A DNA stretch of 52,198 bases, taken from assembly GCA_022708025.1 (NCBI GenBank), contig JAKIZM010000019.1, positions 1-52,198 of the forward strand, written 5' to 3'. Numbering within the stretch: the stretch's first letter is position 1; the number at the start of each line of letters is the position of its first letter. Origin of the DNA: Bacteroidota bacterium. Its GTDB lineage: Bacteria > Bacteroidota > Ignavibacteria > Ignavibacteriales > Ignavibacteriaceae. The notes beneath the pieces were generated by a model, which saw only the letters and a program-made list of their open reading frames with translations, did no database searches and had not been told where the DNA came from. Below, one piece after another: positions 4,514 to 20,854 of this stretch. Both the position numbers and the translations under genes were made by a program.

Positions 4514-4544
4514 AGTCTGATTAACAAAACCTGGAGTAAAGGAA

Positions 4545-6203
4545 ATCAATAATAATTTAATAGTAAAATTAATACAGGCGATCTTTACTCTTTTAATCGT
4601 TTTCGGTTGTAGTTCGGTTAAACCGGGTGAAATATTTATTCATTCTAATCAGACGGGTTTTTTACCACAGGATGTTAAAACCGCTTTGATACTGTCTGAT
4701 ATTGATCTCTCTAAAAAAAGCTTTTCTATTTTAGATGCATCATCCGGGAAAACTGTATTAGAAGATGTAATTGATTCTTCGCCACATTCTTATGGAAATT
4801 TTAATTTTTGTTATGAAATAGATTTTTCAAAACTGAAAGAAACTGGCAACTATAAAATAAAAATCGGGGATAATGAATCGTTTGATTTCAGAATAGATGA
4901 AAAAATATTTAATCCTGTCAGAGATTCATTAAGCTTGTTTTTTAAGGTTCAAAGATGCGGTCCAACTAATCCAATCTTACACAAGCCTTGTCATTTATCT
5001 GATGCTGCATATTTAATTGGTTATAAAGATTCATTAAACAGAGATCTTACCGGCGGATGGCATGATGCCGGCGATTATGTTAAGTTCCTTAAAACAACTG
5101 CTTATACAACCTATCTGTTATTGTTTAGTTATGAATTTGATAATGAAAAATTTGATTTTGATCTTGATGGAAATAATGTTCCGGATATTCTTGAAGAAGC
5201 AAGAGTCGGATTGGATTGGTTAATGCGGGCTAACATAGATAATCAAAAGTTTGTAATTCAGGTTCAAAATGAAACTGATCATTCAATCGGATGGAGGATA
5301 CCTGAAGATGATTCATTACAGTTTAACAGACCAGGATATGTAAGTATAAGTAAGAACTCAATTGGATATTATTCTGCTGTAATGGCTTTAGCCTCACGAA
5401 TATGGAAGGAAAGATTTTTAGATAACGAATTTTCATCTAAGTGTTTAGAGCTTGCGATTAATTTTTATAACTTAAAAGATAATGCTCCTGATTTTGATTC
5501 TATATATTCTAATCATTATCCGGATAATGATTTTAATGGCAAATTAGCTTTGGCAGCAATTGAGTTATTTATTACAACTGGCAAAAAAAATTATTTAGAT
5601 GATGCTGTAAAATATGGAAATCTTGCAGGTGCAGATTATTGGTGGAGTGTCGGACAGATTAATTCTTTAGCTCATTATAAAATAGCAAAATTCAATCCTG
5701 AGTTTGCAAATTATATTTATCAGAATTTAAATGCTGCTAAGACAAATGCTGATAAAAATCTTTTTCATTTAGGGTTGGATTTTTCCTGGGGTACTACTAA
5801 TTGTTTATTAGGTGTTAGTCTCCAGTCAATTCTTTATAAAAAATTAACTGGTTCCAATCTATTTGATTCTTTAAATATTTTTCAGCGTGATTTTGTACTC
5901 GGCAGAAATGTCTGGGGAGTTTCATTTATTTATAATATTGGTAAAAAATTTTCCAAACATCTTCATTCACAGATTGCATTTTTTAATAATGGATATTTAC
6001 CGGGCGGATTAGCTGCCGGACCTGCTCCTTATTCAATATTAAAAACCAAAGAAATTTTAAGAGATAATTTTGATTATGATCGTTTTAATTCAGATGAAAT
6101 AAAATATTATGATGATTATAAAGATTTTGTAACTAATGAACCAACGATAGCTGGCAATGCTACTGCGTTATTTGTTTTCGGATACCTCAGTTCACCAGAA
6201 TAA
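4545..6203 (+). CDS. Glycoside hydrolase family 9 lipoprotein (endoglucanase type), start codon abnormal
   Basis: Predicted lipoprotein of about 552 residues that cleaves beta-1,4-glucan or a related polymer. The coding frame is open from 4521. It encodes a lipoprotein signal with lipobox VFGC (Cys at 4608-4610), then a CelD_N-type Ig domain (IFIHSNQTGFLPQDVK ...), then the GH9 (alpha/alpha)6 barrel. Catalytic elements are visible: GGWHDAGDYVKF with the Asp pair, HLHSQ, and YYDDYKDFVTNEPTIAGNA with the acid Glu. No ATG, GTG or in-frame TTG lies before the lipobox. The first usable TTG is at 4686, inside the Ig domain. I place the start at ATC 4545, which has GGAG eight bases upstream and would give (M)NNNLIVKLIQAIF. 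It could equally be a mutated ATG. It may trim the polymer made by the cluster that follows. Confidence 0.8.
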   Translation: MNNNLIVKLIQAIFTLLIVFGCSSVKPGEIFIHSNQTGFLPQDVKTALILSDIDLSKKSFSILDASSGKTVLEDVIDSSPHSYGNFNFCYEIDFSKLKETGNYKIKIGDNESFDFRIDEKIFNPVRDSLSLFFKVQRCGPTNPILHKPCHLSDAAYLIGYKDSLNRDLTGGWHDAGDYVKFLKTTAYTTYLLLFSYEFDNEKFDFDLDGNNVPDILEEARVGLDWLMRANIDNQKFVIQVQNETDHSIGWRIPEDDSLQFNRPGYVSISKNSIGYYSAVMALASRIWKERFLDNEFSSKCLELAINFYNLKDNAPDFDSIYSNHYPDNDFNGKLALAAIELFITTGKKNYLDDAVKYGNLAGADYWWSVGQINSLAHYKIAKFNPEFANYIYQNLNAAKTNADKNLFHLGLDFSWGTTNCLLGVSLQSILYKKLTGSNLFDSLNIFQRDFVLGRNVWGVSFIYNIGKKFSKHLHSQIAFFNNGYLPGGLAAGPAPYSILKTKEILRDNFDYDRFNSDEIKYYDDYKDFVTNEPTIAGNATALFVFGYLSSPE

Positions 6204-6232: not shown

Positions 6233-6260
6233 TTGAAAACTAAGGTTGTAGCATTATAAT
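6233..6260 (+). promoter_or_regulatory. Sigma-70-type promoter before the exopolysaccharide cluster
   Basis: TTGAAA at 6233-6238, a 16-base spacer and a perfect TATAAT at 6255-6260. It would start transcription near 6267, about 115 bases before the ATPase gene at 6383. A second TATAAT at 6345-6350 lacks a -35 box at the right distance. Confidence 0.45.
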
Positions 6261-6382: not shown

Positions 6383-7588
6383 ATGAAAAAAAGCGTGCAA
6401 CTATTTCGTTCTGGGATTCCTATTGTCGATAACGCATGGGGAGGGTTTTATCATGGAGGAACGTATTTGCTTGTCGGAGAACGTAAGACCGGCAAGACTC
6501 TTTTAAGTTTACAATATGCTATTGAGGCAGCAAAAAATAATGAAGTCTGTCTGTTCTTCACAAGTTCACGTCCTAAAGATTTAATAATTCATGCAGCTTC
6601 TATTGATGTTGATCTCGAAAACTATATCAATCAAAACCTTATCATTGTAGTCAGAGTTGCACATCCAACCGATTCAGAAGAATTTAAAACCAGAGATGAA
6701 TTACTAAATGATTATCTAAACGATCTGTTGTCTGTTATAAATCAGTATAAACCTGAAAAGATTATTTTTGATGAGATAACACCGTATGTGGAATTTGAAA
6801 ATCTTAACAATTTACAGGAAGCATTTGGGTCTTTAATTGAATCAATTGAAGAATCAGGTATTACCAGTTTATTGATTTTACGTGAACCTGCAGCTCAAAG
6901 TTCAAAGATGATTTTTAATGTTCTTAATTCATTTGCTACAGGTATCATTCATCTTCATAAAGCAAAAGAATCTGACGAAGAGCAGCCGGGAATAATTGAA
7001 ATTAAACCAAATATCGGACACACTGAAGGTTATTTTAAAGCAAATTATTTTATTGAGCCTTATAAAGGAATCACAACAGATTTTAAAGCACCCAAAAAAT
7101 CTACAAAAGAAAATAATTTGTTGGATATTACTGAACTTCAACCGTCAAAAACTTCACTGAATGCTATTCAGGATTTGTCAATCCCTAATATCTATTCAGT
7201 TAATGATTTCAAATTAATTGTAAATAATCAGATTGCTCTTTATAAAACCACTGGTCAGCCTTTTACAATAGTTTCATTAAGATTAAATCAATATAGCAGT
7301 GCAGAAACAAAAATCAATTTTGACCAATTATATAATGCTGTAAAAACCACAGCGGACAAAAAAAACAAGATATGTGTAATAGGGGAAAAAATATTCATTC
7401 TCTTAACGAAATCTGAAAACGGTATTATTGAAGAGTTTATTAATAAAGTTCATGGTGCGTTAAAAGTAGAAACGAGCGTAAATGTATCTTATCTTGTTCT
7501 TAAGGTTAATCAGTTTATGAATAGTGTGGAGGATATTTTTAACGAGTTTGATCTTGAAGCAGCAAGAACTCAATTAAATCAGAGATAA
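6383..7588 (+). CDS. KaiC/RecA-like ATPase fused to a degenerate GGDEF domain
   Basis: Cytoplasmic protein of 401 residues. Residues 1-220 form a RecA/KaiC-type ATPase (GvpD/RAD55-like) with an intact Walker A, GERKTGKT at 32-39, and a Walker B ending IIFDE at 127-131. Residues 270-390 follow the secondary-structure pattern of a GGDEF domain (VNDFKLIVNNQIAL ... QPFTIVSLRL ... VNVSYLVLKV), but the signature is replaced by IGEKIF and no RxxD inhibitory site is visible, so it cannot be a cyclase. The layout recalls BcsE of cellulose systems, which pairs a RecA-like domain with a degenerate GGDEF that binds c-di-GMP. It heads the same-strand cluster to 20.7 kb, with 15 bases to the next gene. A regulatory NTP or nucleotide sensor is the most reasonable inference. 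Confidence 0.75.
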   Translation: MKKSVQLFRSGIPIVDNAWGGFYHGGTYLLVGERKTGKTLLSLQYAIEAAKNNEVCLFFTSSRPKDLIIHAASIDVDLENYINQNLIIVVRVAHPTDSEEFKTRDELLNDYLNDLLSVINQYKPEKIIFDEITPYVEFENLNNLQEAFGSLIESIEESGITSLLILREPAAQSSKMIFNVLNSFATGIIHLHKAKESDEEQPGIIEIKPNIGHTEGYFKANYFIEPYKGITTDFKAPKKSTKENNLLDITELQPSKTSLNAIQDLSIPNIYSVNDFKLIVNNQIALYKTTGQPFTIVSLRLNQYSSAETKINFDQLYNAVKTTADKKNKICVIGEKIFILLTKSENGIIEEFINKVHGALKVETSVNVSYLVLKVNQFMNSVEDIFNEFDLEAARTQLNQR

Positions 7589-7603
7589 AAGTGATAATCT
7601 GCG

Positions 7604-10450
7604 ATGAAATCATTTTACTCTCGACAGTTATTTTTGTTAATTTTTTTAATTAACCCCTTTATTTTTCCTCAATCTCAAAACCCTGAGAAATTTAAATCTG
7701 AAGCTTTGCAATTAATGGATTATGGTCGTTATGGCGAAGCTATTGACCAGTTAAATAAATATGTTTCGGCAGTGCCAACATCTGCTGAAGGATTTAACCT
7801 GAGAGGTGTATGCTATGAAAAACGTGGGAATTATGAATATGCTGTCTATGATTTCAGAACTGCTAAAAAACTAAAACCAGATGATAAAGAGATAAATTCC
7901 AATCTTAACAGAACGATATCCAGTTGGTATAAAATCCTTTATAATAAAATTGAAGGACATAAAAGAGAAATAGCTATAGATCCGAACTCGGCAAAAAATT
8001 ATCTTGAAATAGGGAAGTGCTTTAAACATTTAGGCAATTGGAGTGAAGCAGAAATATGGTATGATCAGTATCTGGAAAAAGAAACAGCATCTGCTGATGA
8101 GATAATCAGGTATAGTGAAATTCTAGCTAAGAATAACCAATTAGTTAAAGGCGAAAAGGTTTTAAAAGTTTATACAGAAAAATATCCGGATGATCATAGA
8201 TTACTTTCTAGATATGGATATTTTTTATTATGGTTAGGGAAAAATAAAATTGCCGTTGATGTTTTTACTAAATCACTTGAAATAAGACCTTTCTTTAAAG
8301 AAGCAATGGATGGACTCGATTTGGCTAAAGGCAAGGGTTACATCTATTCAATAAATGATACAACTATCCGTTATAATTATGGTATTACACCTGAACCAAA
8401 AGAGTATATAATAGATAAATATTACAGATTATTGAAAAAAGATTATGAAGATGCTGAAACGAGATATAAACTGATTGAAGAATTAATTAAAGCAAATAGG
8501 TTTGAAGAAGCTAAGGATCAGTTAAAGTTTTTAACTGCAAATACAGATTATCTGCAAAAGAGTGTTGAACTATCTCAAAGAATTTCATTACTAAGCAACT
8601 CGTATTATTCAGATAAAGTTAATTATTATGAAGATATCTTGAGTAAGAATCCTGATAATAAAATAGCTTTGTTAGAGCTTGCTAAATATTATTCATATAA
8701 GAAAGAATATGATAGTGCAGTTAAATTATATAAAAGATATTTAAATCTTAATCCTTCTGATAAGGAAGTGAGATTTCATTTAGCTCAGGTCTTAATGTGG
8801 CAGAATAATCTTTGTGAAGCGCTTGAAATAATTGAATCTCTTGTCCAGCAGGAGAAAAACAAAGTTGAATACTTATTATTTGCAGCAAAGTTAAATTACT
8901 GGCTTGATTCTGATCCAGCTAAAATAAAATCCATTTATGAAAAAGCGCTTAAAATTGATCCAGCAAATTATGAAGCAATGATTGGGCTTGCAAATGTGTA
9001 TTTAGCAGCTTCAGATTTTAAGAACTTTGAAGAGGTTGTTAATAATATTTCCAGGATTGACAGTTTATCAGGTGAGTATAAAAAAATATTACAGGAATAT
9101 TCTGTTATTCAAAAGAATATTGAAGAAAAAGAATTAAACGCAAAGCTTGATAAAGCAAGGTTTTTAGCTGCTGATAAAAATTACATTTCAGCAATCAAAA
9201 CATATAATGATTATTTATCTTCTGTTGATTCAAATGACAATGTTAAGATGGAACTTGCTGGCATTTATATTCTTAATAACCAAAAAGACAAAGCAATTTC
9301 AATTTATAAAGGTCTGTTAGCAAATAAATCTGATTATGAAGTCAGGAAAAAACTTGCCAAGTTATATTTATGGTCAAGTGATTCAAGTTTAGCTTTGAAT
9401 GAGTTTATTGATCTGCATTCCCAAAAACCTGATGATGTGGAAACCAAAATATTGTTAGGTGATGCTTATTTACAAAATCATCAGATAGAATCAGCAAGAA
9501 CTATTTATTCAGACCTGCTTAAGGAATCTCCAAACTCACATATTATTAAAACCAGGTTAGCGTGGATTGATGGCACTGAAAAATTTTCATTTGCTCAATT
9601 TCCAACATATATACAATTAATTCCAAGAGCATCTTACTTTAATGATAATACGAACTTCAGTTATTCAAACATTGGTCTTGGTTTTGATTTAGGAGTTACT
9701 GGTTTTTTAAGTCTTGGGTTCTCAGGATCAGCAGGTACACTTGCTTCTAAAGAACTGAGTGTAAGATTTAATCAGTTTAAAGGTACTGCTTATTTTAAAG
9801 TTAACCGTTTTATTTCAGGTTCAGCTTCAATTGGACAGAATAGATTTATTGATGAAAAGAATTCTAATTTATATGAGCTTACTTTATCTGCTGGTAAAAA
9901 AGATGTTTTTAATTTCACTACATTTGCAAATTATTCAGACGCAGTATTTATACTCTATTCACCATTTCTTGTCAATAACCGAATCAGTGTAAATCATCTC
10001 GGTATAATGGGCTCCTATAAATTCAAAAATAAATTGATGGTTTCTGGTAAGTTTCAATATTTTGATCTTTCTGATAAAAATTCTGGAAACCAGTTGCAAC
10101 TAAGATTAGGGAAAGAGTTTGAAAATGATCTTAGCGCTGGTTATGAATATTTTTATTATGACTTTAAGCATACAATTCCATTATACTGGAGTCCTGAAAA
10201 TTTTGAATCTCACTCTCTCTGGGCTGATTGGAATTTGTATAAAGATGAAGAAGTAAGATTTACTATTGGAGGTAAAGGGGGATTAATTCCTGAAAACAAT
10301 TACCTGTTATCTGAATTCTATGCTGAGTTCGATTATTTGATTATTAAATCACTAATGTTTCAAACCAGATTTACAACAGGTAGTTCGTTCAGATCAGGAA
10401 CCGGTTATCGATCAAATTCTATTTCCGGAAGTATAATCTGGAGTCTTTAA
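7604..10450 (+). CDS. TPR protein with C-terminal outer-membrane barrel, exopolysaccharide exporter type
   Basis: Protein of 948 residues. A signal peptide (about residues 1-22, ending FPQ) is followed by many TPR-type helical repeats to about residue 660, for example at 33-95, 135-235 and 350-640. From about 665 to the end comes a beta-barrel of the YaiO/PgaA type, with alternating aromatic strands such as RASYFNDNTNFSYSN and final residues SIIWSL. PgaA, PelB and BcsC share this plan, in which the TPR superhelix guides a nascent polysaccharide through the periplasm to the outer-membrane pore. Its place just before a processive synthase gene supports the same job here. It ends 177 bases before the synthase gene. 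Confidence 0.82.
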   Translation: MKSFYSRQLFLLIFLINPFIFPQSQNPEKFKSEALQLMDYGRYGEAIDQLNKYVSAVPTSAEGFNLRGVCYEKRGNYEYAVYDFRTAKKLKPDDKEINSNLNRTISSWYKILYNKIEGHKREIAIDPNSAKNYLEIGKCFKHLGNWSEAEIWYDQYLEKETASADEIIRYSEILAKNNQLVKGEKVLKVYTEKYPDDHRLLSRYGYFLLWLGKNKIAVDVFTKSLEIRPFFKEAMDGLDLAKGKGYIYSINDTTIRYNYGITPEPKEYIIDKYYRLLKKDYEDAETRYKLIEELIKANRFEEAKDQLKFLTANTDYLQKSVELSQRISLLSNSYYSDKVNYYEDILSKNPDNKIALLELAKYYSYKKEYDSAVKLYKRYLNLNPSDKEVRFHLAQVLMWQNNLCEALEIIESLVQQEKNKVEYLLFAAKLNYWLDSDPAKIKSIYEKALKIDPANYEAMIGLANVYLAASDFKNFEEVVNNISRIDSLSGEYKKILQEYSVIQKNIEEKELNAKLDKARFLAADKNYISAIKTYNDYLSSVDSNDNVKMELAGIYILNNQKDKAISIYKGLLANKSDYEVRKKLAKLYLWSSDSSLALNEFIDLHSQKPDDVETKILLGDAYLQNHQIESARTIYSDLLKESPNSHIIKTRLAWIDGTEKFSFAQFPTYIQLIPRASYFNDNTNFSYSNIGLGFDLGVTGFLSLGFSGSAGTLASKELSVRFNQFKGTAYFKVNRFISGSASIGQNRFIDEKNSNLYELTLSAGKKDVFNFTTFANYSDAVFILYSPFLVNNRISVNHLGIMGSYKFKNKLMVSGKFQYFDLSDKNSGNQLQLRLGKEFENDLSAGYEYFYYDFKHTIPLYWSPENFESHSLWADWNLYKDEEVRFTIGGKGGLIPENNYLLSEFYAEFDYLIIKSLMFQTRFTTGSSFRSGTGYRSNSISGSIIWSL

Positions 10451-10572
10451 TTTCCTTAAAATATTTACGATTTAGCAATTTTTGTCGCTGTTTGATAATG
10501 ATACAATTCAAATCAAAATCCAAAATTGGTAATCAGTAAATAGAAATTCATTGTAAAAAATTCCCTAAAAAA

Positions 10573-10590
10573 AATGCCTTTAATGGCATT
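10573..10590. other. Small hairpin in the leader of the GT2 gene
   Basis: The 177-base gap between the TPR porin gene and the synthase gene holds AATGCC / GGCATT with a 6-base loop, preceded by a run of A and not followed by a T-run. It is not a convincing plus-strand terminator, and I recognise no riboswitch. It could be a processing or attenuation structure that separates the porin from the synthase. Confidence 0.3.
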
Positions 10591-10627
10591 ATTATTGAAA
10601 ATTTATGGCAAACTATCTTTCGGATAA

Positions 10628-12058
10628 ATGAAATTTAATCAACTCGTTACGCGTGCTATAATAACTATTTCAAACCGAGAGGAAGAAAAAAAAGGAGAAA
10701 ACCTAGAGCAAAAGTATTTACGAAGGATCCTTGTAAGCGGAATAATGTCTTTATTGCTTATTCTGATTATCATTTATTCTTTGCCTTATACAATATTATC
10801 GTATAGTTCTCTGTTTGAGTACTCAACGATTGTTGCTATGGTAATCTTTCTCTTCATCCTTTTGGTAAGATATTTTGCAATCCTTATATCGGCATACTTG
10901 TATATAAACGAATATACATTCTCGTCCGTTAATGGATATGCACCGTTCGTTTCAATTATAGTTCCGGTTTATAACGAAGGTAAGGTTATCCGTAATTCGA
11001 TTTCATCATTATTGAAACTGGATTATTTTCATTATGAAATTATCATTGTTAACGATGGCTCTACTGATGATACGAAACAAATAGCTGAATCAATGGTTGG
11101 ATATCAGGATGGTCTTTATGGAAAAGTATTGGTTTCATTAATAAATCAGCCTAATCTTGGTAAAGCAAGGGCATTGAATGCTGGTATATTTTATTCTAAA
11201 TCAGATTTTGTTCTTTGTATGGATGGTGATTCACAATTATCTCCGGAATCCATAAAAGTTGCTGTACGACATTTTAAAGATCCTAAAATAGGCGCAGTTG
11301 CCGGAAATGTAAAAGTGCAAAATAGAAAAAGATTTTTTACTGATCTGCAGGCACTGGAATATATTGAAGGATTAAATATGGCCAGAAGTGCTCAAAGTTA
11401 CTTCAGACTTGTTAATATAATACCGGGGCCAATTGGAATTTTTAGAAGATCTGCTATTGAACAGGCAGGATTTTATTCAAGTGATACTTATGCAGAAGAT
11501 GCTGACCTGACATTGAAACTGCTATCAAAGGGCTGGAAAATTTATTATGAGCCAAAATCAATATCATATACTGAAGCGCCGGTTACTTTGCAGCAGTTAT
11601 TAAAACAAAGATACAGATGGACAAGAGGAATATTACAATCTATAAGAAAACACAAAAAAATAATGCTTAGCCCTGCTACACATTTTGCTCAGGCATTTAT
11701 TCTCTGGGTTATGTCTTTTGAGGCATTGATATGGCCTACAATGAATATTGCTGCTAACGCTTTTTTTATTTTTGCAGCTTTGTTTTTTGGATTTTCTCAT
11801 TTGATTTTCTTTTGGTGGGCAGGATTAGCAATATTGGATCTTGTAACTGCACTTTATTGTGTTGCGGTTGAAAAAGAAGAATTCAGACTTATTTGGTACG
11901 CCATTATTTATAGAATGTTTTTTATTTTAATCATTGATATTTGTAAAACCATGTCAACAATAGAAGAATTTTTAGGAATTAGAATGACATGGGGTAAATT
12001 AGAAAGAACAACGTCCGGCAAATCTGGAAAGATTGCTGTTAATACTGTAGGAAATTAA
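10628..12058 (+). CDS. Processive GT2 glycosyltransferase, exopolysaccharide synthase (PgaC/IcaA-like)
   Basis: Inner-membrane synthase of 476 residues that polymerises a sugar from its nucleotide donor. Two hydrophobic spans lie at about 33-57 and 63-92, then the GT-A domain with VSIIVPVYNEGKVI, the first Asp in VNDGSTDDT, DxD at D199-G-D201, the acid/base motif EDADL at 290-294, and QRYRW at 327-331. At least three more spans follow. This is the layout of processive synthases such as PgaC/IcaA (poly-GlcNAc) and NodC. There is no PilZ domain, so it is unlike BcsA. The polymer cannot be read from sequence. Its stop codon abuts the ATG of the next gene, so the two are co-translated. Confidence 0.85.
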   Translation: MKFNQLVTRAIITISNREEEKKGENLEQKYLRRILVSGIMSLLLILIIIYSLPYTILSYSSLFEYSTIVAMVIFLFILLVRYFAILISAYLYINEYTFSSVNGYAPFVSIIVPVYNEGKVIRNSISSLLKLDYFHYEIIIVNDGSTDDTKQIAESMVGYQDGLYGKVLVSLINQPNLGKARALNAGIFYSKSDFVLCMDGDSQLSPESIKVAVRHFKDPKIGAVAGNVKVQNRKRFFTDLQALEYIEGLNMARSAQSYFRLVNIIPGPIGIFRRSAIEQAGFYSSDTYAEDADLTLKLLSKGWKIYYEPKSISYTEAPVTLQQLLKQRYRWTRGILQSIRKHKKIMLSPATHFAQAFILWVMSFEALIWPTMNIAANAFFIFAALFFGFSHLIFFWWAGLAILDLVTALYCVAVEKEEFRLIWYAIIYRMFFILIIDICKTMSTIEEFLGIRMTWGKLERTTSGKSGKIAVNTVGN

Positions 12059-12511
12059 ATGGAACTTATACCGATATTGTCCACTATAATTCTTGTTGCC
12101 ACTATATGCACTTTTATTCTGGCTGTGGGGGCTTATATCCTTTATAAGATTAGAGAAGGCAAACAGCAATATGCATATCAGACAAAACCTTCTACTATAA
12201 AAGCTGAATTGGTTGTTCCAAACGAGACAGCAATTGGAAAAGTTTCTGTTCAGCCTGAACAAAAAAGAACACTATCAGTGGAACCGGGAATTACAAGAGA
12301 AGAATACACCAAACAACAGCAACCATCTCAATCAAAATTAACTCCTGAGCCAAAAGAATACAAAGCTGAGGAACCTAAAGTTGAAAAACAAAAAGTCAAA
12401 TTGCGTACAACTACTCGGCTAAGTGATGAAAATAAATTCCTGAAATATACTTCTGAAGGGTATATCCCGACTCAGGAAGATAGAAGTTCAGGGGAACTAA
12501 AGTGGCGGTAA
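12059..12511 (+). CDS. Small single-span membrane protein of the polysaccharide cluster
   Basis: Protein of 150 residues with one N-terminal hydrophobic segment (about 4-28, ending AYILYK) and a hydrophilic, Lys/Glu/Gln/Pro-rich cytoplasmic-type region ending in a more ordered SEGYIPTQEDRSSGELKWR. I do not recognise a family. Position right after the synthase and the small size recall PgaD, which assists PgaC, but PgaD has two spans and binds c-di-GMP with PgaC, so the analogy is positional only. The ATG touches the synthase stop, and its 3' end overlaps the next gene by 10 bases. Confidence 0.75.
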   Translation: MELIPILSTIILVATICTFILAVGAYILYKIREGKQQYAYQTKPSTIKAELVVPNETAIGKVSVQPEQKRTLSVEPGITREEYTKQQQPSQSKLTPEPKEYKAEEPKVEKQKVKLRTTTRLSDENKFLKYTSEGYIPTQEDRSSGELKWR

Positions 12512-14397
12512 ATAAAATCTTTGGGGTAAAGGTTAATCAATTCTTTATTATTTTATCAGGAATAGTAATACTCATTTCAGCTTTTCTGATTTATTATTTT
12601 ATTTTACGCAGTATATATGGCCGCTTTGATGTTGACGATGTTATTCCCAATCAAACTGTGATAGAAGATTTCTTGTTCGGGAAATCACCTGAAGTTGCAA
12701 TACTTTATTCCAAATACACAGAAAACACTTTACCGGTTGGAAGTACCTGGCTAAATGATAATTTATCAACCTGGAAAAAATTTCTTGATAATCTGAATAT
12801 TAAGTATGATGTAATTTCAGATCAGACTATTGAAAACAGTCAACATTTCAAATACAAATTAATTGTTCTGCCGGGCACAAAATCAATAAGCAATGAAGAA
12901 GCGTTACAATTAAAAAAATATCTGGAAGATGGTGGAAGCATTTTTGCAACAGGCGGAATAGGTTCTTACTCTGATGATGGAAAATGGAGAGGTTGGGAAT
13001 ATCTTAATCAGGTTTTTGGAATTCAATTTTCGTACGAACTTAAACCCAATGAGTTTTCAAAAATTCACACCGTTTGTGGTAGCTTGCCAATCACAGCTAA
13101 TATTCCCACAGGATTTCCATTAAAAGTTGCTACATGGGATAGACCAATGGCTGTTGAAGTATTAGATCCAAGAACAACACAAGTAAGTTTTTGGTATAAT
13201 TATCGTCTTGATGATGGTTTAGTTCGGGAAGAAATTAAAAAGTCTGCCGGTATTGCTTTTGGCAATTATGGTAAAGGAAGATTTATGTGGATGGGTTTTG
13301 AACTAAACTCTATAATTGGTGTTCAGGAAGACTACATATATTTTGAAAGACTATTTAATAACTCAATCAAATGGCTTTTATATTCACCGATTGCTTATGT
13401 AAGAGACTGGCCCACAGGATATGAAGCAGCTGCGGTAATTATTCCTGTTCTTTCAGATAGTATCGCAAACATTAATAATTTGCTCCCGGTTTTAAGAGAT
13501 GAAGGATTGCCTGCAACTTTTTTTGTTGATCCGCTGACTGCAGAAATGAATAAAAGTGTAATTAAAAATATTTCCAATTATGGTGAAGTAGGTGCGTTGG
13601 TTGATATTGGTTTTATGAATTCAATTAATGATAAAAAGAATAAACTGAATAATTACAATTTACAACTTGAAAAAATTTCAAAAGCCAAAAGTGTTCTTGA
13701 AAATATTGTATCCAAAAGTGTAACTGGTTTGCTTCCGTTGTACGGATTGTTTGATAATAGCACCTTAAATGCCGTTGTAAATGCTGATTACAAATATGTA
13801 TTAACTGATTCACTTACAGACCGCTCCGTTCCGAAAACGATTATTCGCGGTGATAAACGAATTGTCACAATGACTAAAACAGCAAGAGATGATTATGAAG
13901 TTATAAGGGATTTTGGATTAACACTTCCTGGTTTTCAGTTCTATACTTATCAGGAAGATCTGGACCGCACTCTATTCGAAGGCGGGATGTACATCTTTAA
14001 AGTTCATACTGATTATCAATGTAAAAGTGAAAATATTGGTGTTCTAAGAGATATAATTAAAGAGTTGAAGCGGAAAAGATTCTGGATAACAACTGCTTCT
14101 GAAATCCAAAAATGGTATGAAAAAAGAGATTATATTGAAATAAGATCTGATAGAAGAGGGAAAACAAGAGTCGCAGTTAAAGTCTCAAATCCCGGCGTGG
14201 ATAATATTAATAATCTTGTTATCGATATCGATTTAAATGATTTTGCAAATAATGTTACGATTGGGTCTGAGTTAATCGGAACAAAACCGGCAAGTGTAAA
14301 ACACAGCAACGGTTCACAAATGGTATATCTTTTTATAGATGATCTTAAACCAGGTGAATCAAGACAGTATTATTTGGATTATGATCAGGTAAACTAA
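12502..14397 (+). CDS. Membrane-anchored GATase-like plus catalytically dead polysaccharide deacetylase-like protein (first paralogue)
   Basis: Protein of 631 residues from a GTG start with AGGGGA upstream. One N-terminal span (about 14-37) anchors it, with the rest periplasmic. Residues 60-290 look like a GATase/ThuA-like flavodoxin fold (VAILYSKYTENT ... KLIVLPGTKSISNEEALQLKKYLEDGGSI). Residues 300-540 follow the NodB deacetylase fold. However, the TFDDG motif reads IPVLSDS, the HxxxH metal motif reads GALVDIG and the RxPYG motif reads LLPLYG. Only the last His (FKVHTDY) remains, so metal-dependent catalysis is unlikely. A C-terminal beta domain closes the protein. It occupies the place that PgaB has in poly-GlcNAc systems and probably binds or guides the polymer. 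Confidence 0.7.
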   Translation: MAVNKIFGVKVNQFFIILSGIVILISAFLIYYFILRSIYGRFDVDDVIPNQTVIEDFLFGKSPEVAILYSKYTENTLPVGSTWLNDNLSTWKKFLDNLNIKYDVISDQTIENSQHFKYKLIVLPGTKSISNEEALQLKKYLEDGGSIFATGGIGSYSDDGKWRGWEYLNQVFGIQFSYELKPNEFSKIHTVCGSLPITANIPTGFPLKVATWDRPMAVEVLDPRTTQVSFWYNYRLDDGLVREEIKKSAGIAFGNYGKGRFMWMGFELNSIIGVQEDYIYFERLFNNSIKWLLYSPIAYVRDWPTGYEAAAVIIPVLSDSIANINNLLPVLRDEGLPATFFVDPLTAEMNKSVIKNISNYGEVGALVDIGFMNSINDKKNKLNNYNLQLEKISKAKSVLENIVSKSVTGLLPLYGLFDNSTLNAVVNADYKYVLTDSLTDRSVPKTIIRGDKRIVTMTKTARDDYEVIRDFGLTLPGFQFYTYQEDLDRTLFEGGMYIFKVHTDYQCKSENIGVLRDIIKELKRKRFWITTASEIQKWYEKRDYIEIRSDRRGKTRVAVKVSNPGVDNINNLVIDIDLNDFANNVTIGSELIGTKPASVKHSNGSQMVYLFIDDLKPGESRQYYLDYDQVN

Positions 14398-14410
14398 TAG
14401 CAGAAAAAAA

Positions 14411-15985
14411 TTGAATATTCAAAAAAAAATATCGTTTTTCATTATTTTAATTTTATTTGCTTCGGTTGAATTAAACGCACAAACCCGCATTGCTGTTTTA
14501 TATTCGGAGTTCTCTCAAAAGTCATTTTATTCTGATACTAATAATTATTTAGATGAATTTACTGCATGGGAGATTTTCTTAATGCAGAATAAAATTAAAT
14601 ACAAAGTAATTTATGATGAGGATTTGGATTCTGATCTGGCTGATGATTTTGATATTTTAATATTACCGAGATACAATATTCAATCAACTGAGAAATACTC
14701 AGTAATAAAGAATTTTTTACTTTCAGGTAAATCTGTTCTATCTGTAAACTCTTTTAACTCAACTTTATCAAGTATTAATACTAATGAGTTAAAAGATTTG
14801 TTTGGTATAACATTAAAAAATGAAATATTTAATAACAACCTTAGTTTTACTCAAACAATATTTGCAAGCCCGATAAATTCGTTCAAAAGCCCGGCAAGTT
14901 TTTTAGTCTCAGCAAAAGGCAAGAATCAGTATGTTGATTTAAAAAGATTTAATTATTCTGCAGCCGGATTTGTATTGGGAACTGATGTAAATTCTGAAGT
15001 AAGTTCAATTGTATATGGATATAATAATTCCGGCAGATTTGTTTTTATCGGTTATGGATTAACAGATCTTATTGGCGGATCTGAAGAATATAAAAACTTT
15101 GAATTGTTTCTGCTTGATGCTTTGAAATGGTTGAATACTGAAGTTGATGCATTCCCATATTTAACTATAAATAAAAAGGAACAGTTCAAACTGCTTCTTG
15201 TACAATATAATAACGCTCTTAGCAAAGATTTTATTGATGTGCTAATACAAAATGATTTTAATCCGCATATTCTTATAAACGAAACATCTCAACTGGAAAA
15301 AATTCCTTTAGAAAAAATTTCAGAAGATCAGATTATTTTGGATTTAAGAGCATTTAATCAGGGGAATAAAAATCAAAACATCATTGAGTATTTAAGAAGT
15401 TTTGAGATGCTTGGTGAATTAAAAATAAAATCAGTGTTTATTACCTCTAATTTTGCTACTTCACTGATTAATCAGATAAAAGAATACGGAGTAAATAATT
15501 TTATATTCTCTGATAAGGAGATTACCGGCACACAGTTAAATAATGATAAAAGTTTATTCATATTTTTTAATCCTGCAGAGCAATCTTTAAAAAATAATTC
15601 AATAGAAATAATTTATTTTCTTCCAAAAATTGATTGCAATAAAGATATCGAAAATGACTTCCTGATAGATCTTAAAAATAAAGTAAATGACAGGACAGTA
15701 TTTACAGATATATCCTCGCTAAGAGATAAACTGATGCTGGAAAGAAAAATAAAAATAAGAGTTCAAAAAAATCAGAATGTAGAAATTAATGTCATAAATG
15801 ATAACCTGGTAGAGATTAAGGACCTCATTTTGTTCGTGAAGATTGATGATTTTAATATTGTGACTGATAGTCGAAAATCCATTTTAAGTTATACCACTGA
15901 TCAAAGAAACGGGATGAAAAAAATATTTATAAATAAGATCTTCCCAAGATCAGAAGAAAAAGTTATCTTCAATTCAGGCAGATAA
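14411..15985 (+). CDS. Secreted paralogue of the preceding GATase-like/deacetylase-like protein
   Basis: Protein of 524 residues from a TTG start, with a signal peptide (about 1-23, ending LNAQ) instead of a membrane anchor. Its whole length parallels the preceding gene product: RIAVLYSEFSQKSFY against VAILYSKYTENTLP, FDILILPRY against YKLIVLPGT, the segment SGRFVFIGYGL against KGRFMWMGFEL, and the same C-terminal beta domain. The deacetylase-like part has degenerated further, and even the last His is lost (IIYFLPKID against YIFKVHTDY). A tandem duplication followed by divergence is the simplest explanation. It ends TAATG, overlapping the next start by one base. The function is unknown; a non-catalytic periplasmic partner of polymer export is inferred. 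Confidence 0.68.
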   Translation: MNIQKKISFFIILILFASVELNAQTRIAVLYSEFSQKSFYSDTNNYLDEFTAWEIFLMQNKIKYKVIYDEDLDSDLADDFDILILPRYNIQSTEKYSVIKNFLLSGKSVLSVNSFNSTLSSINTNELKDLFGITLKNEIFNNNLSFTQTIFASPINSFKSPASFLVSAKGKNQYVDLKRFNYSAAGFVLGTDVNSEVSSIVYGYNNSGRFVFIGYGLTDLIGGSEEYKNFELFLLDALKWLNTEVDAFPYLTINKKEQFKLLLVQYNNALSKDFIDVLIQNDFNPHILINETSQLEKIPLEKISEDQIILDLRAFNQGNKNQNIIEYLRSFEMLGELKIKSVFITSNFATSLINQIKEYGVNNFIFSDKEITGTQLNNDKSLFIFFNPAEQSLKNNSIEIIYFLPKIDCNKDIENDFLIDLKNKVNDRTVFTDISSLRDKLMLERKIKIRVQKNQNVEINVINDNLVEIKDLILFVKIDDFNIVTDSRKSILSYTTDQRNGMKKIFINKIFPRSEEKVIFNSGR

Positions 15986-17271
15986 TGAACAAAAATATCC
16001 GGAATATTTTTTTGAATTTTAGTAAGTCCTGTTTTTCTTTTATCAAAATAGTTTTCGTGCTGCCTTTTTTTTATGTTTCTTGCGCTGAATGGAGCAGTGA
16101 ACCTGATAATAATTTCAATGATGGTAAAAAGATTCAGATTACTTATCCGAAAAGCGGAGATACCATTTCTGAAGGTTTGATAAATATTTACTATAATGTA
16201 AATCAGCCTTACTCAACAAAGTTTCTTGAATTATATATAAATGGAAATTTTGTAAAAAATATTCCTCCTAATTCTGACGGTACACTTCCGGCTATAAACT
16301 ACTTTTTTGATTCTGCTTGGATAAATAAAGTTTTTAATCTGTATTTGATATATTATGATAACGAAGGAAAGTCCTATAAAAGCAATATTATTTCTGATAT
16401 AATTATCATTAAAGATAATCATATTCCGTTTAAGCCGTACAATGTAAGGCTTATTAATTTTAATAATGATTCGTGCAACATTAGCTGGAAGGACTCTTCA
16501 AAATATATTGAGCAGTACGAGTTGTGGAGAAAGACGGATTTTGATGGTGAGTATCTCTTACACCAGACATTATCAGGTACATTTTTTAATACAAATGATA
16601 ATGGACTAGATACAAATAAAACTTATTATTATAAAATACGAGGAATAAAATCATCCGGCGTATCTGAATTTAGCTCTGAAGTAAATACTTCCGGAATATT
16701 TAGTTCAGGTGATTTATTGCCAGCAACTAATCTTACTTTACAAATTCTTGAAGATCTTTCGATTCAGGTTAACTGGACTGACAATAGTGATAATGAAAAT
16801 TATTTTTCAGTTGAAAGAAGTACTGATAATAATTTATTCAGTTCGGTTGCTTATTTACCTCCAAACACAACTCAATATATTGATCCTAAAAACGGACTGA
16901 TATTAGGGCAAACCTATTTTTACAGAATAAAAAATTACAGCAGCACTGATTCAGCCGTAAGTACAGTGGCAAGTATTGTATTAAATTCTGTAATACTTAA
17001 TCCGCCGACAAATTTATCCGCAAATTATGATAATACAGTACCTGTTGTCGAACTTAGATGGACAAATAATGATAATAAAATTCTATTTTTTGATATAGAA
17101 AGAAAAACAGAAAATGGTAACTTTGCTTTAATAAAAAGAGTGAATGCCGGAAATAATTTGTATCTTGATTTCAGTATTGTTCCTCAACAAAAATATACTT
17201 ATAGGATAAGAGGATTTGATTTGATCAGATATTCCGATTATTCAAATGAAGTAATAGTATCAACTTATTGA
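15985..17271 (+). CDS. Lipoprotein with three fibronectin type III-like domains
   Basis: Protein of 428 residues. A long N-terminal hydrophobic segment ends in a lipobox-like VSCAEW at about residues 32-37, so it is probably a lipoprotein. An Ig-like domain follows at about 50-140 (IQITYPKSGDTISEGLINIYY), then three FN3-like units near 145-235, 245-330 and 340-428 (for example IQVNWTDNSDNENYFSVERS and VELRWTNNDNKILFFDIERK). FN3 arrays are common spacers or carbohydrate-facing adhesion units in surface proteins. The start overlaps the stop of the preceding gene, placing it in the polysaccharide operon. There is no T9SS sorting domain, unlike the protein at 139-1929. Confidence 0.75.
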   Translation: MNKNIRNIFLNFSKSCFSFIKIVFVLPFFYVSCAEWSSEPDNNFNDGKKIQITYPKSGDTISEGLINIYYNVNQPYSTKFLELYINGNFVKNIPPNSDGTLPAINYFFDSAWINKVFNLYLIYYDNEGKSYKSNIISDIIIIKDNHIPFKPYNVRLINFNNDSCNISWKDSSKYIEQYELWRKTDFDGEYLLHQTLSGTFFNTNDNGLDTNKTYYYKIRGIKSSGVSEFSSEVNTSGIFSSGDLLPATNLTLQILEDLSIQVNWTDNSDNENYFSVERSTDNNLFSSVAYLPPNTTQYIDPKNGLILGQTYFYRIKNYSSTDSAVSTVASIVLNSVILNPPTNLSANYDNTVPVVELRWTNNDNKILFFDIERKTENGNFALIKRVNAGNNLYLDFSIVPQQKYTYRIRGFDLIRYSDYSNEVIVSTY

Positions 17272-17285
17272 TTTTAGGATTAAAT

Positions 17286-20200
17286 GTGTTAACCTTAAAT
17301 AAAGAATGGTTAGATTTTTTTAGTAAGACTGCTGATAAACTTGGCAGTCCTTTGATTATTCTGGATGACTCACAAGAAATTGTTTTTACCAATCAAAAAG
17401 CTATCTCGGATTTTCTGATTGATGATCATAATGTTACTCTGGATCAGGTTTTTGAATCTGAAACAGTAATTGAGTTGAATGATTTAATCGGAATATCTGT
17501 AAATACCTCAGCTAAATTAATAGAAAGGAACATTTCTCTTAAATTAAAAACCGGTGCGATTGAAGATTTTGAGTTAGTACTGGAAACAATATCATCTGAA
17601 TTTGGCGTTAATACAATTCTTTTTTTCATGAAGAAAGATGGAATTGGCAATGATCAGACAAGTGTTATAAAAACTTCTGTTTCGATTGAAAAAATATTGG
17701 CATTGTACCCCGAAATTAAAGTCCTGTATGATGCGGTTAGTTCAAATTCACCGCTTACTATTCTTTCGTTAAAAAATGTTCAAAAAATAGTTGATACTTT
17801 TCCTGAACCAGTGTGGATTAAGACTCCGGATGATAAACTGATCTGTGTAAATGATTCATTTGCTAATAATCTGGATATAGAAAAAAGTTTTGCAACAGGT
17901 AAAAAACATGAGATGTTTTTACCGCTTCATAAACAATTATCCTTACAACTTGTAAATCAATTTGTAAATCAAAACAAAAAACCATTAATTTTAGAAGGAT
18001 TTGTAAAAAAAAATGCAAATTTTAAGGTTTATCAGGACCTGTTACAGATACCGATAATTGATCGGAATAATAGAGTAAATTATATACTTGGTCTGATAGT
18101 TGATAATAAGAAAGATTATAGCGGGACAGGCAAATTAACGGATTTTTTTAGAGAAGTATTAGAAAATTTCAGAAATCCATTAGCAATAGTTGATTTTGAT
18201 GAAAATTTTAAGTTATGTAATCAAAAATTTCTTGAGATTGTTAATCAAAATTCTAATGAAATATTAGATAAAAAATTCAGTGATTTATTTTCTGATGATT
18301 TAGTTGAAAAATTTGTTTCATTTACTGAAAGTGAATTTACAGACCTAACAACCGAAACTAGTTTATTTAATGATAGTAAGAATGTTGAAAACAAATATAA
18401 AGTGTATTTTTGTAAACAAGTTTCTAAATTCAACGCTGAAGAAGTAATAGTAATTACACTTGAATTGATAAATGGTGAAAAGATTTATGAAGATGAAATA
18501 GAATTCATTTTAACTAAAAGAGGAAAAATGTTTGACGTTTTAATTGAAAAGAATCCAGATCCGGTTTTTATATATGATAAAGAGAATTTAAAGTTTCTTG
18601 AAGTTAATGAAGCTGCCGTAAATTTATACGGTTACACACGTGATGAATTCCTTCAGATGGATTTAACTGATTTGTACTCGCCCGAAGATATTCAGACTCT
18701 TCTCGATTCCTCCGGTGATGAAACTTCAACAGCAAGTTTCGGTAAACCTTTCAGACATAGAAAAAAAGACGGAACCATCATTTTAGTTAAAATCAGCAAA
18801 ACTTCATTTATGTTTAACGATAGAGAAGCTCATTTTAATATTGTAAATGATATCACCGATAGCGTTGAGAAGGATAAGCAGAATCAGATGCTTCGTGCAA
18901 TTTTTGCACAATCAGATTTAATGGTACTAACCACAGATGCGGCTGGTTTTATAACTTATATTAATCAGAATTCTATAAAAACACTTGGTTATACTTCGGA
19001 TGAATTATTACGCTCGTCGTTTGCGAGCCTTGTAATAGATGACGAAAGAGCATTGATCAATACTTCGATATTTCAATATCATTTAAAAGATGCTATTGAG
19101 CTTGAAACGACAATCAAATCAGCAGAAGGCAAAGTTATTGATTGTCATCTGTTTGCTTATCCGATTATGGATTTTGAAGGGGAGATAGATTCATTTACTT
19201 TGATATTAAAACCAAAAGTAACTTCATCTGAGCCTAAAGAAATTATTAAGGAAGTTGTAAAAGAAGTTGTAGTAGAAAAATCTGAAGCAGAAGATAAAAA
19301 AACAGTTTTACTTGATTCAAATTTTCTATCGGGAATGTTTCATGAAATACTAACCCCGATAAATGTAATAATTGGTTTTTCTCAGGAGTTGATTAGCAGT
19401 ACTGAAAATCCTACTGAAGAACAAAAAGAAGCAGCAGAAATCATTAATCAAAATCGCATTAAGATGATGGATACAATGAATTCTGTTGTTGAGTATTCAG
19501 ATATTCTTCAGAACAAAACTCCTCTGAAAATTGAAGATATCAGTATTACTGAGATTATTGAAAAACTAGATGAAAACATTCAGAGTATTTCTGGTATTAA
19601 TGATATTCAGTTTTTATACGGAAAAATCTCTTCTTCTCTAAAGTTTAAAAGTGATCTGCATAAGTTTGAAAGCTTTGTTCTTACAGTCATAAAGGTTGTT
19701 TCAAGATTAAGCAAAGACAAAAAAGTATATTTTTCAGCATTCCCGCTTGACAATGATACATTTTTAATCGGCTTAAGTGATCAATATGGTAATCCGTCTG
19801 AGTATGTTGCAAATGTACTTGAGCAGGTTTATGAAAATTACCGTGATCCCAAAGATTTTGGTTTACCAAAACTAACTACATATTTATCAAGAGTGCTTCT
19901 CGATTATCTTGGCGGAAGGTTTTATCGTTCATCAGCTCAGACTTTGCGGCCTGAAACAGGCTTTATTTTCAGTTTAACACTATCACCAAAAAACAGATTT
20001 GAAATTATCAGAACTCAGCCTGATATTAAGGCTGAAAAAAGTGTTGCTGCAGAGGAAGAAAAAACTTCTAAAGAAGTTGATTTAACAGCTGAACCTGAAA
20101 TACCGGAAACAGATGAGGATATTTTTAAACCTGTACAACCAGTATCACAGGAGATAATGAGTAAGCTGTCTGAAAGTATTCCAGAAGAAGATGTAACAGA

Positions 20201-20732
20201 TGAAGAAGCAGAAACCCGTTTTGAGCAGGATGAATCTTTTGAAAGAAAGACAGAAACTACAGATGAAAGTGATAAATTACCCGAACAAGAAAGTATAATA
20301 CCTGAACAGGAAGTAAAAGAAGAGGTTCCTGAGATTGTTCCTGTAAAATCATTGGATCTGTCTAAACTGAATTGTTTATACATAGAAGATCAGGTTGATT
20401 CCCAGCTTTTATTTAAAGTTCAGTTAAAAGAATTACGCGATGTAAAATTTGCAGTTAGTTTTGAAGAAGCTCAATTGCTTTTATTCAATCATCAGTTTGA
20501 TTTTATTGTTATGGATATAAATTTACAAGGCGAATATAACGGACTCGATGCGCTTAAAATTATCAAGTCTATGCCGGCATTAAGTTCAATACCTGTTATT
20601 GCTGTTACCGCTTATGTTCTTCCTGGTGATAAAGAAAAATTTATAGCTGCCGGATTTGATGATTTTATCTCTAAACCTATTTTCAGAGAGAAAATGATAG
20701 CATCTCTTGAAAAGATATTTCTTTCCCAATAA
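17286..20732 (+). CDS. Five-PAS hybrid sensor kinase with eroded ATPase domain and C-terminal receiver
   Basis: Large protein of about 1148 residues with no membrane span. PAS-like units lie near 15-125, 155-280, 285-400, 420-530 and 540-655; the fourth is the clearest (DPVFIYDKENLKFLEVNEAA ... GYTRDEF). After a charged helix comes a HisKA-like H-box (FHEILTPINVIIGFSQ, His686). The following region has no N-box Asn and no DxGxG, and reads LSDQYGNPSE, so ATP binding looks lost. An acidic Glu-rich linker leads to an intact receiver (VMDINLQ, Asp1077, VTAY, SKP). The start chosen is GTG 17286 with AGGA upstream; a TTG at 17268 overlaps the preceding gene. It closes the cluster and probably acts as a phospho-acceptor or scaffold controlling polymer production. 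Confidence 0.75.
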   Translation: MLTLNKEWLDFFSKTADKLGSPLIILDDSQEIVFTNQKAISDFLIDDHNVTLDQVFESETVIELNDLIGISVNTSAKLIERNISLKLKTGAIEDFELVLETISSEFGVNTILFFMKKDGIGNDQTSVIKTSVSIEKILALYPEIKVLYDAVSSNSPLTILSLKNVQKIVDTFPEPVWIKTPDDKLICVNDSFANNLDIEKSFATGKKHEMFLPLHKQLSLQLVNQFVNQNKKPLILEGFVKKNANFKVYQDLLQIPIIDRNNRVNYILGLIVDNKKDYSGTGKLTDFFREVLENFRNPLAIVDFDENFKLCNQKFLEIVNQNSNEILDKKFSDLFSDDLVEKFVSFTESEFTDLTTETSLFNDSKNVENKYKVYFCKQVSKFNAEEVIVITLELINGEKIYEDEIEFILTKRGKMFDVLIEKNPDPVFIYDKENLKFLEVNEAAVNLYGYTRDEFLQMDLTDLYSPEDIQTLLDSSGDETSTASFGKPFRHRKKDGTIILVKISKTSFMFNDREAHFNIVNDITDSVEKDKQNQMLRAIFAQSDLMVLTTDAAGFITYINQNSIKTLGYTSDELLRSSFASLVIDDERALINTSIFQYHLKDAIELETTIKSAEGKVIDCHLFAYPIMDFEGEIDSFTLILKPKVTSSEPKEIIKEVVKEVVVEKSEAEDKKTVLLDSNFLSGMFHEILTPINVIIGFSQELISSTENPTEEQKEAAEIINQNRIKMMDTMNSVVEYSDILQNKTPLKIEDISITEIIEKLDENIQSISGINDIQFLYGKISSSLKFKSDLHKFESFVLTVIKVVSRLSKDKKVYFSAFPLDNDTFLIGLSDQYGNPSEYVANVLEQVYENYRDPKDFGLPKLTTYLSRVLLDYLGGRFYRSSAQTLRPETGFIFSLTLSPKNRFEIIRTQPDIKAEKSVAAEEEKTSKEVDLTAEPEIPETDEDIFKPVQPVSQEIMSKLSESIPEEDVTDEEAETRFEQDESFERKTETTDESDKLPEQESIIPEQEVKEEVPEIVPVKSLDLSKLNCLYIEDQVDSQLLFKVQLKELRDVKFAVSFEEAQLLLFNHQFDFIVMDINLQGEYNGLDALKIIKSMPALSSIPVIAVTAYVLPGDKEKFIAAGFDDFISKPIFREKMIASLEKIFLSQ

Positions 20733-20758
20733 ATAGACATTTAATAATTTTTTAAGTT

Positions 20759-20792
20759 CCTCTTAGTTTTTTCAATTAAGAGGATTTTTTTT
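20759..20792 (+). terminator. Rho-independent terminator of the polysaccharide cluster
   Basis: The stem CCTCTTA / TAAGAGG can be extended to 10 pairs including one G-U, with a short T-rich loop, and is followed by eight T at 20785-20792. It lies 27 bases after the hybrid kinase stop and before the lexA promoter. Confidence 0.8.
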
Positions 20793-20800
20793 ATCTGAAC

Positions 20801-20854
20801 TTGACATTTATTCCATATCGATTTAGATTACCATACAAAAGTATGGTATTTTTG
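20801..20854 (+). promoter_or_regulatory. lexA promoter with palindromic operator
   Basis: TTGACA at 20801-20806 and TAGATT at 20824-20829 are 17 bases apart. A perfect 8-base palindrome, TACCATAC-AAAA-GTATGGTA, occupies 20829-20848, overlapping the -10/+1 zone. A Bacteroidetes-type -7 element TATTTTTG (20847-20854) also overlaps it. A symmetric site at this place, 22 bases before lexA, is what LexA autorepression would need. The binding itself is inferred. Confidence 0.65.

Follow-up and report, generated by a model that had tools for sequence, protein, structure and literature searches.

Here we describe a conserved gene cluster in a bacterium of the family Ignavibacteriaceae (order Ignavibacteriales, class Ignavibacteria), carried on contig JAKIZM010000019.1 of GenBank assembly GCA_022708025.1, a genome of 3.45 Mb; the whole 52,198-nucleotide stretch that we analysed is referred to as the window. 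An initial annotation had placed eight same-strand genes, here called A to H, between positions 6383 and 20732 and had joined them, by their order and overlaps, into a single exopolysaccharide synthesis and export system. All eight open reading frames are found on the plus strand as proposed and the overlaps are present, amounting to 10 bases between D and E, 1 between F and G, and 4 between G and H. That list overlooked a GH9 endoglucanase gene upstream of A, which accompanies the cluster in 35 of the 40 related loci introduced below. We consider it probable that GH9-A-B-C-D-E-F-G-H constitutes a synthase-dependent secretion system, likely one that makes and exports a beta-linked exopolysaccharide.

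The GH9 gene (4521..6203, plus strand) encodes a lipoprotein-like endoglucanase composed of CelD_N and GH9 domains (PF00759, 8e-71). Gene A (6383..7588) encodes a KaiC/RecA-like domain followed by a GGDEF-like C-terminal domain, a layout resembling that of BcsE, and is followed by B (7604..10450), a tetratricopeptide repeat (TPR) protein matching TPR families, with a signal-like N-terminus and a predicted role as a BcsC-like export porin. C (10628..12058) is a GT2 synthase of the processive type to which PgaC is nearest (PF13641, 4.7e-31), and D (12059..12511) is a one-span protein of no known family whose long tail ends in Trp plus one residue. According to its structural model, E (12502..14397) is a membrane-anchored pseudo-deacetylase, and F (14411..15985) is an E paralogue (24% identity, 2.3e-12) that likewise lacks the CE4 motifs. 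G (15985..17271) is, as first annotated, an FN3 lipoprotein (PF00041, 6.7e-11; the lipoprotein signal was judged by eye), and H (17268..20732) combines multiple PAS domains with a HisKA and a receiver domain, its HATPase domain being weak or undetected.

Synteny across Ignavibacteriales and in distant relatives

The initial annotation had named scattered homologues as the finding that would speak against a single system; our synteny check instead found the genes together on one strand throughout the order and in one genome from a different order, and the core genes also in distant relatives. A search for E through 245 genomes of the class returned 50 matches at an E-value of 1e-3, and strong, full-length E proteins were found in 40 of the 43 genomes of the order (this one included) and in G131, a genome of another order; among the genomes listed, which were ordered by kinship, the three members of the order without E are G180, G203 and G211. 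Stretches of up to 20 kb from the 39 other genomes of the order and from G131 make up the 40 loci, from which we built family profiles. By these profiles C, D and E each occur in all 40 loci, B in 39, and A, G and H in 37 each (G thus missing in three). A second E-like gene was detected in four loci and by BLAST in a fifth (L041), F being missing in most, and an SGNH-type protein, X, lies between B and C in 17. No core gene is on the opposite strand in any of the 40 loci. These counts are minima, since in two loci a contig end truncates H and in four the stretch ends within GH9; on extension, G237 proved to have A and GH9 just past the stretch and G140 to have GH9-A-B together on another contig, so that A is present in 39 and B in all 40 of the genomes. 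A is absent anywhere in the genome of G131. Spacing is tight, with median gaps of -10 bases for D-E, -1 for A-B, 7 for G-H, 22 for both C-D and E-G, 146.5 for GH9-A and 244 for B-C. In a second sample of 80 named contigs (the best among 132 retrieved), some of which come from the same genomes as the 40 loci, E was detected in 80, D in 79, C in 76, G in 68, H in 66, B in 61, A in 59 and GH9 in 46, again with none on the opposite strand; most absences here correspond to contigs that are too short, with the exception of G (4 of 12). Cultured hosts of the cluster are Melioribacter roseus (G153), Ignavibacterium album, Stygiobacter electus (L147) and Rosettibacter firmus (P0014). As a separate observation, five loci (L040, L084, L110, L115 and L120) have two or three A-like genes in tandem before B.

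The three genomes of the order that lack E also lack C, their best matches reaching 7.8e-23 to 4.8e-25 compared to 1.4e-236 to 1.1e-267 in four positive genomes. A is missing in G180 and G203 and is kept in G211, where the interval between genes for a fatty-acid hydroxylase (FAH) and LexA (L215, 4397-12475) holds A, a 507-residue TPR protein, a GT2 enzyme other than C and a 690-residue H. C, D, E and G are not in this locus, and its GT2 enzyme scores 47.5 bits against the C profile, with no NCBIfam family near its cut-off. From G211 it appears that C, D and E are inherited together while A and H can accompany another GT2. The locus itself has the look of a remodelled cluster, a natural synthase swap. 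Overall, B, C, D and E together with A form the core of the cluster.

When 395 genomes of the phylum were searched with the E profile, 77 matches reached 1e-3, some of them larger E proteins encoded in families that do not belong to the class, and from the latter we drew a distant set of 13 loci in a branch whose protein names are mostly Rhodothermales or Bacteroidota. D, E and, beside E, a second E-like gene (E') are found in ten of the 13, and the complete order A-B-C-D-E-E' is found in six (L181, L182, L183, L185, L187 and L188). L193 has a piece of A at a contig end; L184 starts with B, and the end of a different contig holds its A together with the start of a B; L186 is truncated ahead of D; and L189 carries C-D-E-E', while its A sits on a separate contig. 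In family f37, each of the three loci has A-B-C, one E and a larger protein in the D position, which matches the D profile in one of the three.

It is unlikely, though well worth weighing, that these genes do not form one system and that B-C-D-E is a synthase unit beside which GH9, G and H are neighbours kept by shared synteny with FAH and lexA. Several observations weigh in that direction and against a nine-gene system. GH9 and H are, by profile, absent from all 13 distant stretches, two of which contain a weak match to G at the edge and on the opposite strand. G180, which has no A, C or E, still encodes a protein that matches the C-terminal two thirds of the H model (positions 382-1095 of 1096), and G203 and G131 yield generic matches only to the H profile. 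The flanking genes are themselves retained: FAH, at 3863-4513 in the window and often 5' of GH9 in relatives, precedes a complete GH9 in 6 of the 11 loci with room (in L055 and L067 it overlaps the extended GH9 frame), and lexA follows H in 16 of the 36 with room. Raw counts across the 40 loci are 16-17 for FAH (17 by a one-sequence profile), often at a stretch edge, and 16 for lexA. Since FAH is retained to almost the same extent as GH9, the link of GH9 to the cluster may in part be an old neighbourhood, and the wide GH9-A gap is consistent with this. On the other side, GH9 lies within 1 kb 5' of A in 22 of the 24 loci with room in the stretch, it is found downstream of G in G131, so that the pairing is kept in a different arrangement, and it stays with A and B in the split cluster of G140. 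H is the least certain member of the cluster and is separable from it. With GH9 added, H treated as separable and G and F as members absent from some and from most loci, respectively, the single system first proposed from order and overlap is supported by synteny, with an exopolysaccharide as its putative product.

In the window, the cluster is followed 3' by genes for LexA, a DUF72 protein and a Y-family polymerase and preceded 5' by GH9 and FAH. A promoter-like site upstream of A (6233..6260, plus strand; TTGAAA-16-TATAAT, an 11/12 match) is a pattern only, such sites numbering 83 in the region compared to 96.2 in shuffles. The strong terminator reported at the end of the cluster is present as a pattern, a hairpin of 11 pairs followed by T8 (20758..20784, plus strand), with a second terminator-like hairpin beyond H (20829..20848), but such patterns are hardly enriched (9 in the region; mean 7.1, standard deviation 2.8 in shuffles). 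Ahead of its first standard start codon at 4686, the GH9 reading frame stays open back to 4521; this part (4521-4685) encodes a lipoprotein-like signal ending in LIVFGC but contains no ATG, GTG or TTG; in the relative L039 the frame begins with a standard codon, and the start in the window may be an unusual codon or reflect a base error. Elsewhere in the window, the product of 139-1929 carries a C-terminal sorting domain of the Por secretion type, which suggests that the organism uses type IX secretion.

Predicted synthase, porin, sensory proteins and pseudo-deacetylases

Relatives of C retain the motifs typical of processive GT2 enzymes, namely DGD(S/A) in 39 of 40 and both AEDAD and QxxRW in 40 of 40. 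The earlier description of C as PgaC-like was borne out: among the synthases compared, E. coli PgaC scored best against the C profile (180 bits), followed by NodC (112), BcsA (65.5) and NfrB (8.8). Its best NCBIfam model is that of PgaC/IcaA (TIGR03937), at 203.3 bits and below the cut-off of 422.3, and the BcsA model TIGR03030 gave 59.5 bits with a cut-off of 699.1. Among proteins of solved structure, the sequence relatives of C include hyaluronan, chondroitin and cellulose synthases. In a GT2 tree, C stands apart from PgaC, NodC and BcsA, with weak deep forks and long branches, and no claim made here rests on that tree. A C-like GT2 end is also present in a 1041-residue protein of G131 (L180, from 4958), which groups, with support of 99/97, with a long fused glycosyltransferase encoded on a Prevotella plasmid.

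B had been assigned to the PgaA/YaiO-type TPR porins. It is indeed a TPR protein, but its best match among the E. coli porins is BcsC (57.7 bits, 2.8e-20; alignment over BcsC residues 211-1114 of 1157), ahead of NfrA (37.5 bits) and PgaA (4.9 bits), the PgaA model TIGR03939 scores 71.2 bits with a cut-off of 366.65, and porin function is a prediction. The small one-span protein D has, as was proposed, a single helix by simple hydropathy; this helix lies at the N-terminus and is strongly conserved from Ignavibacteriales to Rhodothermales. The tail is variable, but Trp is its penultimate residue in 39 of 39 members from the order; when distant members were included, this held for 13 of 14, L186 being the exception. 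No Pfam family was found in the window copy; the D profile retrieved 1220 proteins, one of the 120 listed having a Pfam domain, and the D of I. album is IALB_2028. Compared to E. coli PgaD, D reached 3.4 bits by hmmsearch and gave no match by hhalign.

The KaiC-like nature of A is clear from a single KaiC domain at residues 9-198 (Pfam, 4.3e-29), and the matches listed from a fold search are all KaiC-type, over residues 2-236. A does not correspond to the full-length circadian KaiC with its two fused domains (NF006799, 63.2 bits with a cut-off of 408). As for the degenerate GGDEF end claimed for it, PF00990 gives no match in A, but residues 268-401 appear GGDEF-like from the succession of secondary-structure elements in the model and GGDEF_2 gives sub-threshold matches in two of four distant A proteins. 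By profile comparison, this C-terminal domain aligns in register with degenerate GGDEF proteins of the same genomes at a non-significant E-value of 0.11. The BcsE family PF10995 scores 15.4 bits in A with a cut-off of 25, and an E-value of 0.05 is attained by 2 of 28 relatives. No RxxD-GGDEF was seen by eye in the alignment of A, and the Walker Lys is replaced by Arg in 22 of 28 A proteins.

We took a census of cyclic di-GMP (c-di-GMP) proteins in 14 genomes of the class Ignavibacteria, comprising ten of the order with E, the three without it and G131. Each encodes one GGDEF-family protein at 1e-3, and the GG[DE]EF motif is found in none of these 14 proteins. PilZ and EAL were each found in 0 of the 14 genomes, in a census that did not extend to HD-GYP or other cyclic-dinucleotide proteins; in the same searches 8, 5 and 6 of 14 named control genomes were positive for GGDEF, PilZ and EAL, respectively. 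The motif-less protein of these genomes (L159-L163, L171-L179), which spans 619-704 residues in the five that were fully read, is a second conserved pseudo-GGDEF protein in the class. Control of A by c-di-GMP, which we had considered, was dropped on finding no RxxD-GGDEF and no intact protein of the three families searched in the 14 genomes. With the Walker Lys missing from most copies of A and no intact c-di-GMP protein of these families in the 14 genomes, A may take its input from another nucleotide or from a protein. Two points tell against this view: the window copy of A retains the Walker Lys, so that its ATPase may be active, and one of the 13 distant genomes has a strong GGDEF match (4.8e-46). 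A first reading of D as a BcsF-like anchor for A is not supported, since G131 has D without A and G211 has A without C, D and E in its locus; in BcsF, the tail binds the degenerate NTPase of BcsE (available portion of PMC11470070).

PAS, HisKA and receiver domains are present in all 27 H proteins compared, as are the HisKA His and the receiver Asp, and HATPase_c is detected in 5 of 27 at 0.01. We relied on this Pfam count and not on an HATPase box pattern, which failed on the control CusS too. By simple hydropathy, none of the 12 H proteins read has a membrane helix. The initial view of H as a multi-PAS hybrid kinase is upheld for the PAS, HisKA and receiver domains but not for the HATPase domain, which is undetectable in the window copy, and as judged from these sequences H may act as a relay whose kinase domain is failing. 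PADLOC returned no match to defence systems for A, D, E, F or H.

The catalytic motifs of GH9 are well conserved, with DAGD and the C-terminal NE each found in 22 of 23 relatives, 13 of 23 of which also have a simple lipobox pattern. M. roseus has four GH9 genes, whose order and approximate sizes correspond to those of the published four, and the cluster GH9, at 58.0 kDa, has the value given for Mros2241. In the available part of the published work, Mros0757 and Mros2241 are named as the likely sources of cell-bound carboxymethylcellulase bands of 55-65 kDa (PMC3534657). The match to Mros2241 therefore makes the cluster GH9 a candidate beta-1,4-glucanase, and its natural substrate may be the cluster polymer. 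X matches Lipase_GDSL_2 in all three proteins compared, in two above the cut-off. These properties, together with the presence of GH9 in most loci, the resemblance of B to BcsC and the BcsE layout of A, are also what would be expected of a cellulose-type system that makes a beta-1,4-glucan or mixed beta-glucan, with GH9 acting as BcsZ, A as BcsE and the SGNH protein as an acetyl-editing enzyme. We regard this as a serious but unlikely alternative: C is closer to PgaC and NodC than to BcsA, PilZ is missing from all 14 genomes of the census, A, D and E have no sequence match to BcsE, BcsF and BcsB, respectively, and GH9 is missing from the distant stretches.

E yielded a model with a mean predicted local distance difference test score (pLDDT) of 88.4, in which a helix, a ThuA/GH42-trimerisation-like domain, a CE4-like domain and a beta domain are predicted, in this order and by fold matches. 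CE4 motifs 1 and 2 are found in none of 57 E and F proteins and in 6 of 6 and 5 of 6 controls, respectively, the motif-2 pattern also missing PgaB. The reading of E and F as paralogous dead deacetylase-like proteins thus agrees with both their identity and their motif loss. Neither PgaB nor BcsB of E. coli matched the E profile. In comparison with the CE4 pseudoenzyme BA3943 (PDB 7bkf; mutants 6hm9 and 6hpa), the match is confined to E residues 302-542. A divergent Pga system producing poly-beta-1,6-N-acetylglucosamine, with E and F as remote PgaB homologues, would account for PgaC being the best match of C, for TIGR03937 being its best model and for the sub-threshold PgaA match of B. We find it improbable, as synthase and porin score below the respective cut-offs, E has no match to PgaB and D only 3.4 bits to PgaD, E and F are devoid of CE4 motifs, and a GH9 gene is adjacent. 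That C instead makes a short envelope glycan (a glycolipid or protein glycan) and no secreted polymer is more improbable still, for while many GT2 enzymes make short glycans and the literature searched, at the level of titles and abstract starts, reports no polymer from these bacteria, a BcsC-like TPR protein occurs in 39 of 40 loci and the processive QxxRW motif in all 40.

A working model and its relation to known systems

Returning to a synthase-dependent system with a beta-linked product, which we favour, its working can be sketched from family membership, conserved motifs and predicted folds; the polymer, its export, the contacts between partners and the inputs of A and H are what we infer. 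Given its family and intact motifs, C would polymerise a UDP-sugar and push the chain across the inner membrane. PgaC requires PgaD. D, co-inherited with C and E, may be a small obligate membrane partner of C. E, membrane-anchored next to C and D, and F where present, would hold and guide the chain in the periplasm in the manner of PelA and, having lost the motifs, without deacetylating it. By analogy with BcsC and PgaA, B would receive the chain on its TPR arm and release it outside. BcsZ is a GH8 enzyme that serves in cellulose systems, and the GH9 lipoprotein might trim the chain in a similar way, while X could edit it in the 17 loci that encode it. From the cytosol, A, with its BcsE-like layout, would set synthase activity in response to another nucleotide or a protein. 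Least securely of all, H might add a PAS/phosphorelay input in Ignavibacteriales.

A bolder proposal, which we put forward only tentatively, is that the cluster typifies a new class of exopolysaccharide secretion in Ignavibacteriales and Rhodothermales in which a shell of pseudoenzymes replaces c-di-GMP control. The shell would consist of a KaiC-GGDEF protein sensing ATP or another nucleotide, a synthase-bound one-span protein with a tail, PelA-like pseudo-deacetylases that hand the chain on to the porin unmodified and, in Ignavibacteriales, a pseudo-kinase relay. The cluster opens the question of how a GT2 synthase can be switched without c-di-GMP. It also invites a re-reading of Mros2241 as a protein that probably serves polymer production and not cellulose use alone. 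As Ignavibacteria are common in anammox granules and subsurface waters, in keeping with the paper titles found, a matrix polymer of theirs may matter in practice, and because cultured hosts carry the cluster, the system is testable.

We found no description of the cluster in the literature searched at the level of titles and abstract starts. The main text of PMC7112194 does not mention Ignavibacter, Melioribacter, Rhodothermus, Bacteroidetes, KaiC or Chlorobi, and the accessible portion of PMC5492636 has no passage on the cluster genes. The initial claim that the regulators and deacetylase-like proteins do not fit Pga, Bcs or Pel is supported, and the cluster as a whole departs from all three, as judged by cut-offs, PgaB and PgaD, BcsA, BcsB and BcsE, and the PelA triad, with domain scans that covered the eight genes and ten neighbours. 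With Pga (E. coli pgaABCD) the cluster shares a TPR porin, a PgaC-type GT2, a small membrane protein beside the synthase and a deacetylase-fold protein; it differs in a synthase and porin that fall under the curated cut-offs, in the failure to match PgaB and PgaD, in the loss of the CE4 motifs and in the addition of GH9 and a KaiC-like protein. With type II Bcs (E. coli bcsRQABZC/bcsEFG) it shares a BcsC-like porin and an endoglucanase in the cluster, BcsZ in E. coli, and A, like BcsE, has a RecA/KaiC-like domain followed by a GGDEF-like one, the NTPase of BcsE being degenerate as well (available portions of PMC7439463 and PMC11470070). It differs from Bcs in that the cluster has no BcsA- or BcsB-like gene (BcsB has no Pfam match within the eight genes), the 14 genomes have no PilZ, the endoglucanase is GH9 and not GH8, A has no visible REC* domain, and neither A and BcsE nor D and BcsF match in sequence.

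The closest likeness of E is to PelA (CE21; PDB 9CGY), and it qualifies the view that the two deacetylase-like proteins do not match known operons: the cluster does not group with Pga, Bcs or Pel, but E shares PelA's predicted domain order, minus the hydrolase. In the available portion of PMC12022489 the corresponding order is an alpha/beta (ThuA/IFT52-like) domain, a CE4-like domain and a beta domain, and 9cgy appears at rank 31 in a Foldseek search with E. The PelA order is thus partly reproduced by the model, and E differs from PelA in lacking the hydrolase domain and the motifs of the D-H-H metal triad, in being membrane-anchored and in being paired with a GT2 synthase. Collectively, the cluster has the general features of synthase-dependent exopolysaccharide systems, a processive-type GT2 and a TPR protein with predicted porin function in one conserved cluster. 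Our best reading is that its outline is known and its combination new, bringing together a PgaC-like synthase, a BcsC-like porin, a PelA-like pseudo-deacetylase, a BcsE-like regulator, a GH9 trimming enzyme and a new one-span subunit in a shell made up partly of pseudoenzymes, and that it adds a conserved secretion system to the short list of Bcs, Pga, Pel and Alg.

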